A program made the translations under genes and the position numbers. A DNA stretch of 22,434 nucleotides from an uncultured bacterium. GTDB taxonomy: Bacteria; Hydrogenedentota; Hydrogenedentia; Hydrogenedentales; CAILVY01. The first letter of the stretch is position 1; the number at the start of each line of letters is the position of its first letter. Below the pieces are notes generated by a model, which saw only the letters and a list, made by a program, of their open reading frames with translations, was not told the DNA's origin and did not search any database. The DNA is taken from positions 1 to 22,434 of the forward strand of contig CALEDJ010000062.1 in the NCBI GenBank assembly GCA_937951485.1, in the 5' to 3' direction. Below, one piece after another: positions 3,687 to 22,380 of this stretch.

Positions 3687-4211
3687 CTAGCCCTTGAGGC
3701 CGTTCAACACGAAATCCTCAAGGCGTTGCTGGATGATGTCGGCGGTTTTGTTGATGTTGGCATTGATGTCAGGGCCGAGGGAATTCAATGCGCCGAGGAT
3801 ATCGCGGGCTTCGGAGATGCCCTGCCAGATGGCTGCGCCGATGAACGCCGCGAACTGCGCGCGACCTTCCTCATTGTCTTCGAGATTGTTGTTCTTCGCG
3901 TAGCGGTCGAAGAATCCCAGCGCGAAGGTGAGGATGCGTTCGGCGGTGGCTTCGGGGGAGGTGTCAATGATCGCGTTCTGCGGGATACCCAGTTCTTCAC
4001 GGGCCTGATTGACGACCGTGAGTAGTTTCTCATAGGCGCGGTTCAGGACGACGTCCATCGCCTGGCCGTTGCCCAGCGGCCCGCTCTTGCCAAATTCCAC
4101 CGTGTCTTTCGGCTGCCCCAATCGCAGGTCTTTGGGAATCAGGCGGGGCGTTGTTGCGCTTTGATTTGTGGTTGCAGGCTGATACGCCGCAGGAAGAATC
4201 GTATTGATCAT
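3687..4211 (-). CDS. DUF5610-domain protein, predicted flagellar-regulon member
   Basis: This 174-aa protein has a flexible N-terminus of about 55 residues (rich in Thr, Gln, Pro) followed by a helical domain. SPEATAERILTFALGFFDRYA, ISEARDILGAL and INKTADIIQQRLEDFVLNGL match what I recall of DUF5610, a family without a known function. ATG 4211 is chosen because GAGGAGG lies six bases upstream; the frame stays open far beyond it, to about 4763, but that part overlaps the release-factor-like gene. There is no signal peptide or membrane segment. The tail motif DTVEFGKSG resembles a D-V-x-[FL]-S/G pattern seen in some flagellar regulators and export substrates, which is a weak hint. A sigma-28-like promoter at 4270-4297 is stronger evidence of flagellar co-regulation. 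Role unknown; an exported or export-linked flagellar factor is an inference. Confidence 0.87.
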   Translation of the reverse strand: MINTILPAAYQPATTNQSATTPRLIPKDLRLGQPKDTVEFGKSGPLGNGQAMDVVLNRAYEKLLTVVNQAREELGIPQNAIIDTSPEATAERILTFALGFFDRYAKNNNLEDNEEGRAQFAAFIGAAIWQGISEARDILGALNSLGPDINANINKTADIIQQRLEDFVLNGLKG

Positions 4212-4269
4212 GGCTCCCTCCTCGTGAGTATGTCCCATTTCTTTGATTTTTGACCCGTCGCTGTGGGTA

Positions 4270-4297
4270 TTATCGGTCCGAATCGGAAAAGACTTTA
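4270..4297 (-). promoter_or_regulatory. Sigma-28 (FliA/SigD)-type promoter for the DUF5610 gene
   Basis: On the minus strand TAAA (4297-4294) is followed after 16 bases by ACCGATAA (4277-4270). The known flagellar sigma-28 pattern is TAAA, 14-16 bases, GCCGATAA, so 11 of 12 fixed positions agree. It lies about 59 bp before the ATG at 4211. A weak sigma-70-like TATTAT (4268-4273) for the divergent gene overlaps it, so the two genes may share or compete for this region. Confidence 0.6.
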
Positions 4298-4314
4298 GTG
4301 CGATCGTCTTACGC

Positions 4315-4650
4315 ATGAAACAGGGGATTGACATAGCAGAGGAGGAACTGGAATACACGTTCTTCCGATCCTCCGGTCCCGGCGGACAGAAAAAGAACAC
4401 GACCGATTCGGCCGTGCGTCTGCGCCATATACCGACAGGGATGGTGGTCATTGCTACCCAGTCCCGTTCCCAGCATCGCAACAAACTTTTGGCATTGCAG
4501 GAGTTGGCGCGGCGACTGGAGCGTCGATCACGACGCCCCGCCCCGCGCATTCCCACCCGGCCCGGCGTGGCCGCCCGACGCGCCCGCCTCGAACGGAAAC
4601 GCCGGCGGGGGGAGATCAAACGCCTCCGCCGCACCCCGGACTTGGAATAG
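4315..4650 (+). CDS. Small GGQ peptide-release-factor-like protein (putative ribosome rescue hydrolase)
   Basis: This 111-aa protein has only the catalytic RF-1 domain. SSGPGGQKKNTTDSAVRLRH carries the GGQ motif (residues 23-25) that enters the peptidyl transferase centre and hydrolyses peptidyl-tRNA. SQSRSQHRNK and the very basic tail (about residues 85-108, many Arg/Lys) fit small release-factor-like proteins, in which a basic tail can bind the empty mRNA channel as in ArfB/YaeJ. There is no codon-recognition domain, so it is not RF1 or RF2. ATG 4315 starts just before the conserved domain; an upstream in-frame ATG at 4243 would add 24 residues unlike the family. No good Shine-Dalgarno is seen at 4315, so the start is less certain. 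It is divergent from the DUF5610 gene and convergent with flhG. Confidence 0.87.
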   Translation: MKQGIDIAEEELEYTFFRSSGPGGQKKNTTDSAVRLRHIPTGMVVIATQSRSQHRNKLLALQELARRLERRSRRPAPRIPTRPGVAARRARLERKRRRGEIKRLRRTPDLE

Positions 4651-21953: not shown

Positions 21954-22380
21954 GTGATTTCGTAACATTTCAGCGGAGTGGCACAGATCGCAGGGGCGTA
22001 CTGTATCGCCTTTTACATCCCCCTTTCTTGTTGTGGCCGGTCTCCTGACCGCGCCACAGGTTCGACCGAAGGTCTCCCCTTTGTGCTGATTGGCGACGCA
22101 CTGGAGACCTTCGGTCACGGGCGTAAAATCCCCCTTTGAAGGGGGGTGGCGCGAAGCGCCGGGGGATGTAAAAGGGTATTTTTGTTGTGGCCGGTCTCCT
22201 GACCGCGCCACAGGTTCGACCGAAGGTCTCCCCTTTGTGCTGATTGGCGACGCACTGGAGACCTTCGGTCCCGGGCGTAAAATCCCCCTTTGAAGGGGGG
22301 TGGCGCGAAGCGCCGGGGGATGTAGAAAGAACACAACATTTCCCGCTGCAGGTCACTCCGCCATAACGTAACGTGATTTC
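21954..22380. mobile_element. Composite MITE-like repeat with inverted ends and a possible 8-bp target duplication
   Basis: GTAACATTTCAGCGGAGTG (21962-21980) and CACTCCGCCATAACGTAAC (22354-22372) are imperfect inverted ends, 14 of 19 positions agreeing. GTGATTTC lies immediately outside both ends (21954-21961 and 22373-22380), as a target-site duplication would. Inside are two 154-bp tandem units and modules found elsewhere in the window. There is no open frame with transposase motifs; the translated frames are repeat artefacts. A caution is that bases just right of the element also loosely resemble those right of the element at 495-579. Confidence 0.55.
22028..22327. repeat. 154-bp tandem duplication of two palindromic modules
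   Basis: The units start at 22028 and 22182 and each runs TTGTTGTGGCCGG, CGCGCCACAGG, GACCGAAGGTCTCC, GCTGATTGGCGACGC, GGAGACCTTCGGTC, then AAAATCCCCC, GAAGCGCCGGGGGATGTA. Over about the first 145 bases I find one difference (A or C after CTTCGGTC). The near identity suggests a recent duplication. Confidence 0.92.

Follow-up and report, generated by a model that had tools for sequence, protein, structure and literature searches.

The window, that is, the whole 22,434-nt stretch of DNA analysed here, comes from a bacterium of the phylum Hydrogenedentota and carries a gene of the DUF5610 family with a motif upstream that resembles the promoters of the flagellar sigma factor, sigma-28. This locus raises the question of whether the DUF5610 gene is expressed as a late flagellar gene and, if so, what becomes of its product. 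The features concerned are the following.

3687..4211, minus strand: DUF5610 gene, 174 codons plus stop (Pfam PF18433, E = 1.2e-21)
3711..4049, minus strand: DUF5610 helical domain (Pfam; pLDDT >90 for most of residues 81–170)
4074..4211, minus strand: flexible N-terminal tail, approximately residues 1–46, carrying D-T-V-E-F-G close to its end; proposed location of an export signal (low pLDDT, composition, D36)
4214..4222, minus strand: strong ribosome-binding site AGGAGGGAG, preceding the DUF5610 ATG (from sequence)
4270..4297, minus strand: sigma-28-type promoter, with TAAA at 4297–4294, a 16-base spacer, and ACCGATAA at 4277–4270 (kept in 29 of 29 relatives)
4315..4650, plus strand: divergent ArfB-like gene (RF-1 domain, GGQ), outside the proposed system (Pfam PF00472, E = 2.1e-25)

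The motif upstream of the DUF5610 gene

The complete motif, TAAAGTCTTTTCCGATTCGGACCGATAA, occupies positions 4297–4270 of the minus strand, and the end of its −10 element is 58 nt from the ATG (4211) of the DUF5610 gene, which confirms the original prediction of a TAAA motif with 16 bases placed approximately 59 bp before the start. The one difference at a fixed position that had been claimed was also found: the first −10 base is A where the sigma-28 consensus has G. In addition, the spacer is 16 bases long, compared with 15 in the consensus. Both departures occurred among the relatives, with a 16-base spacer in 19/29 and the −10 G missing in 4/29. The motif was the only match to TAAA-N14-16-NCCGATAA in the window, and 100 dinucleotide shuffles of the window yielded none. 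The ArfB-like peptidyl-tRNA hydrolase gene starts 17 bases past the −35 element and shares the intergenic region with the DUF5610 gene; an ArfB-like gene occurs near DUF5610 in only some of the relatives.

The survey of sigma-28 sites in the host genome (4.55 Mb) was limited to pattern searches; this genome encodes FliA (C30:21800-22474, 253.9 bits over the TIGR02479 cut-off). Mismatch-free TAAA-N16-NCCGATAA occurred three times, in the regions upstream of flgK, a SurA-like gene, and DUF5610. The pattern TAAA-N14-16-GCCGATAA occurred four times, before a flagellin gene, flgK, and the SurA-like gene, and at one spot without a clear gene, and related forms of the motif were located upstream of the second flagellin gene and both flgM genes. 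The genome scan that had been suggested for flagellin, motor, and chemotaxis genes was therefore positive for the two flagellins, flgK, and the two flgM genes, but with the patterns used, no motif was detected upstream of the motor and chemotaxis genes. The one-mismatch pattern was counted 36 times in the genome versus 41 times in the reversed control, and a looser TAAAG pattern 8 times versus 6 in the control. The rarity of the motif was therefore dropped as evidence, and because one-mismatch sites were no commoner than in the reversed control, the case was built on position and conservation. A single near-consensus site is by itself weak proof and only suggestive; the comparative tests bear the case.

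Several further sites were observed in the host genome. The two FlgM genes (G000:C9:20003-20143 and G000:C34:15485-15661) are each preceded by a sigma-28-like site, and two flgM copies are also common among the relatives. A perfect sigma-28-like site, TAAA-N16-GCCGATAA, lies directly before the gene for the SurA-like peptidyl-prolyl isomerase (L002; G000:C6:99945-99972, minus strand). A strong site, TAAAGAACAAGACATGTTTGCCGATA (L174; G000:C28:34927-34952, plus strand), lies 51 nt before a 124-aa ORF that is cysteine-free and contains EF-hand-like stretches (DADGNRRIS and DLNGDGELS), making this ORF a candidate for a further late flagellar gene.

Conservation of the motif and co-occurrence with flagella

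Among 68 genomes of the phylum Hydrogenedentota, DUF5610 was found in 31, and the upstream DNA was readable for 29. A site was defined by a match to at least 10 of the 12 sigma-28 consensus positions, with the G after TAAA left out of the score. All 29 relatives had a site matching 10–12 of the 12 positions, located 45–78 nt before the start (median, 57), whereas a score of 10 was reached in <2% of cases in shuffles of the relatives' upstream DNA and by only 3 of 135 control genes at the DUF5610 loci of the phylum. In the known sigma-28 consensus, TAAA is followed by G, and this unscored base was retained in 28/29 relatives, whose spacers had diverged. In other groups, 24 of 50 DUF5610 genes reached the threshold compared with 4 of 195 control genes; approximately half of the DUF5610 genes outside Hydrogenedentota fell below it. 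The DUF5610 sites of these groups include TAAAGTTGTGTAAAAAATGTCCGATAA in Shewanella (L094), TAAAGTTTATTCTAAACCTGCCGATAA before a long-form gammaproteobacterial gene (L126), and TCAAGAAGATAAAGACGCTGCCGATAA in Latescibacterota (L105). The comparison of upstream regions of DUF5610 homologues, which had been proposed as a check, was thus in favor of the motif, which stood far above the controls both within and outside the phylum.

The flagellar block in the window near the DUF5610 gene comprises FlhB, FlhA, FlhF, and a FleN-like ATPase, identified with Pfam, and FliR and FliQ, identified by inspection. The original prediction had placed the gene just beyond this block, which is correct for this genome but does not hold as a general trait: in none of the relatives was DUF5610 on the flhA contig, and its neighbors were mixed. 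The neighborhood was therefore dropped as evidence, and the conserved link is the promoter rather than the neighborhood. Elsewhere in the window, at approximately 2600–2840 and 21970–22356, the mechanical translations are alike (e.g., RRSPVRRQSVQGGDLRSNLWRGQE), which suggests a dispersed intergenic repeat.

DUF5610 was found in Hydrogenedentota, Nitrospirota, Latescibacterota, Gemmatimonadota, and Proteobacteria, with a single copy in the host genome, and, in agreement with the predicted link to flagella, it was not common in non-flagellated genomes. FlhA was present in 48/68 genomes of the phylum and in 30 of the 31 DUF5610-bearing ones (Fisher p = 9e-6, ignoring shared ancestry); the only exception was G053, a genome of 72% completeness that encodes FlgM and FliS. 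In family f2, FlhA and DUF5610 occur together in the two genomes of genus g8 and are both missing from the remaining genomes. Of 369 gammaproteobacterial genomes, 26 contained DUF5610, and FlhA occurred in 24 of these versus 178 of the other 343 (Fisher p = 5e-5, again ignoring shared ancestry). One of the two exceptions has a DUF5610 copy interrupted by a stop codon (G411); in the other (G147), the DUF5610 protein contains a cysteine and its gene lacks a site. In a set of 27 DUF5610 genomes, mostly from other phyla, FlhA was present in 23, and the four without it (the carriers of L092, L105, L109, and L115) are all metagenome-assembled. Conversely, 18 of the 48 flagellated genomes of the phylum lacked DUF5610, which is therefore not essential, and it was detected in none of 14 control genomes; its absence from these and from many flagellated genomes indicates that it is accessory rather than core.

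These results bear on the simplest alternative, that the motif arose by chance and the gene is unrelated to flagella. The frequency of one-mismatch sites in the genome, no higher than that in the reversed control, speaks for chance; however, the site is present in 29/29 relatives despite their diverged spacers and recurs in other phyla, and the gene co-occurs with FlhA, making chance extremely unlikely. The conservation of the site and the co-occurrence with FlhA instead support the predicted late-flagellar expression of the gene. DUF5610 appears to be under the control of the flagellar late sigma factor both here and in distant bacteria, and, judging from these genome comparisons, it almost certainly belongs to the class III regulon transcribed by sigma-28 (FliA).

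The DUF5610 protein and signs bearing on its export

The Pfam DUF5610 match covers residues 55–167 (77.9 bits versus the curated cut-off of 26.4). Nothing but DUF5610 exceeded the Pfam cut-offs, the FlgM model was not matched, and an NCBIfam search yielded no match. The conserved core across 43 sequences consists of the segments DTSPEATA-x-RI and G-x-x-EA-x-x-IL, and D36 is invariant in 12 sequences of the phylum. AlphaFold2 confidently predicted a five-helix domain, preceded by an N-terminus of approximately 46 residues with low confidence (pLDDT of approximately 50 over residues 1–30). The sole credible match in both fold and sequence was 3SJR (Foldseek E = 1.2e-3; profile E = 8e-5; superposition with Z 11.6 and 1.6 Å over 83 residues), an uncharacterized structural-genomics crystal structure of CV_1783 from Chromobacterium violaceum that has the same helical fold. 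A viral fold library gave no credible match, and the weak similarity to PaxB in the profile search (E = 0.02, 44 residues) was judged to be due to chance. We found no mention of DUF5610, PF18433, or 3SJR in the papers searched; the only match to the name CV1783 was an unrelated paper on a human cell line. Many gammaproteobacterial DUF5610 proteins are longer, at 360–450 aa (L123, L124, L126, L128, L129, L132–L136, L138, and L139), with a conserved C-terminal region (GELDE..AI..L...) of approximately 200–250 residues after DUF5610, which had no Pfam match in the long proteins scanned.

No cysteine occurred among the 5,239 residues of 30 DUF5610 proteins of the phylum, and 71/77 DUF5610 proteins from all groups were cysteine-free, whereas the neighboring predicted proteins contain approximately 1–2% cysteine. 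FlgM, the exported anti-sigma-28 factor, had 1 cysteine in 2,833 residues in the same genomes, and the flagellin and FlgK of the host genome had none. In contrast, FliS, the cytosolic flagellin chaperone, had 23 cysteines in 3,359 residues in the same genomes, and only 7/30 FliS proteins were cysteine-free (Fisher p = 2e-10 for DUF5610 versus FliS, ignoring shared ancestry). Because we found no statement in the papers searched that cysteine is missing from exported flagellar proteins, the rule was tested on FlgM, FlgK, flagellin, and FliS, and the depletion is a correlate of export rather than its definition. The tail also differs from the domain in composition: residues 2–31 are 4% acidic and 37% Ser/Thr/Asn/Gln, compared with 17% and 19% in the domain. 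Among the sequences listed, the region near the start contained no strongly hydrophobic run of 12 residues of the kind that would mark a Sec-type signal. In FlgM of the phylum, a similar flexible tail terminates in D-x-V-x-[IL]-S, and the counterpart in DUF5610 is D-x-V-x-[FL]-[GS]. We infer from these features that the N-terminal tail may contain an export signal, with the cysteine depletion adding support; together, the depletion and the tail composition are indirect signs that favor flagellar type III export over a cytosolic role.

The similarity to FlgM (PF04316) could mean that DUF5610 acts as another anti-sigma factor of the FlgM type, exported and tuning sigma-28, since both have a sigma-28 promoter, a flexible N-terminus ending in the D-x-V motif, and almost no cysteine, and both occur in the same genomes. 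However, FlgM is a protein of approximately 95–100 aa with a sigma-binding region, whereas the folded domain of DUF5610 comprises five helices and approximately 120 residues and does not match Pfam FlgM. Because FlgM is present separately, with one or two genes already in these genomes, we rejected this identity as very improbable.

A cytoplasmic role within the sigma-28 regulon is less probable than export: DUF5610 could assist late substrates as a chaperone or regulate the motor or chemotaxis, similar to FliS, FliT, and FlgN, and its small size, helical structure, and class III promoter would fit such a role. FliS (PF02561) is likewise small and helical and occurs in the same flagellated genomes, but it has an ordinary level of cysteine where DUF5610 has none, and the two families have no Pfam sequence match. 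Moreover, a separate FliS is encoded in 45/68 genomes, and no gene for a possible substrate lay beside DUF5610 in the loci read. DUF5610 had no Pfam match to flagellar chaperones, and no such fold was among the structural matches listed, which does not exclude one. Given its apparent control by sigma-28 and its freedom from cysteine, a trait shared with exported flagellar proteins, DUF5610 is probably a flagellar part or cargo that has been overlooked.

Proposed role of DUF5610 and its significance

We propose that DUF5610 is encoded by a class III (late) flagellar gene that stands alone. When the hook is finished, FlgM would exit the cell and sigma-28 would be freed; the freed sigma factor would recognize TAAAG-N15-ACCGATAA, and DUF5610 would be made alongside flagellin, FlgK, and FlgM. 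The product, consisting of the flexible tail of approximately 46 residues and the compact, cysteine-free five-helix domain, would be a late substrate that exits through the flagellar type III export gate; it would then be either a minor protein associated with the hook or filament or an accessory factor that is released. That DUF5610 leaves through this gate is fairly probable from the composition of the protein, and we hold the complete explanation, a sigma-28 late gene combined with flagellar export, to be probable to a similar degree. The broader reading is slightly favored, that is, that DUF5610 is an unrecognized late type III substrate in several phyla, either a minor protein associated with the filament or hook or one released through the flagellum; the absence of DUF5610 from E. 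coli, Bacillus subtilis, and Caulobacter would explain why such a substrate was overlooked.

An orphan sigma-28-dependent gene outside the flagellar clusters has a precedent in aer of E. coli (PMC2859248). Like such genes, DUF5610 lies apart from the flagellar clusters and has its own sigma-28 promoter; however, it occurs in several phyla and its product looks exported, whereas that of aer is a membrane receptor.

The late flagellar regulon provides a first functional setting for the DUF5610 family, and the orphan crystal structure 3SJR gains the same setting. The question of what DUF5610 does now comes down to a brief laboratory test in Shewanella, which can be cultured. These findings suggest that flagella export more proteins than the model organisms reveal.
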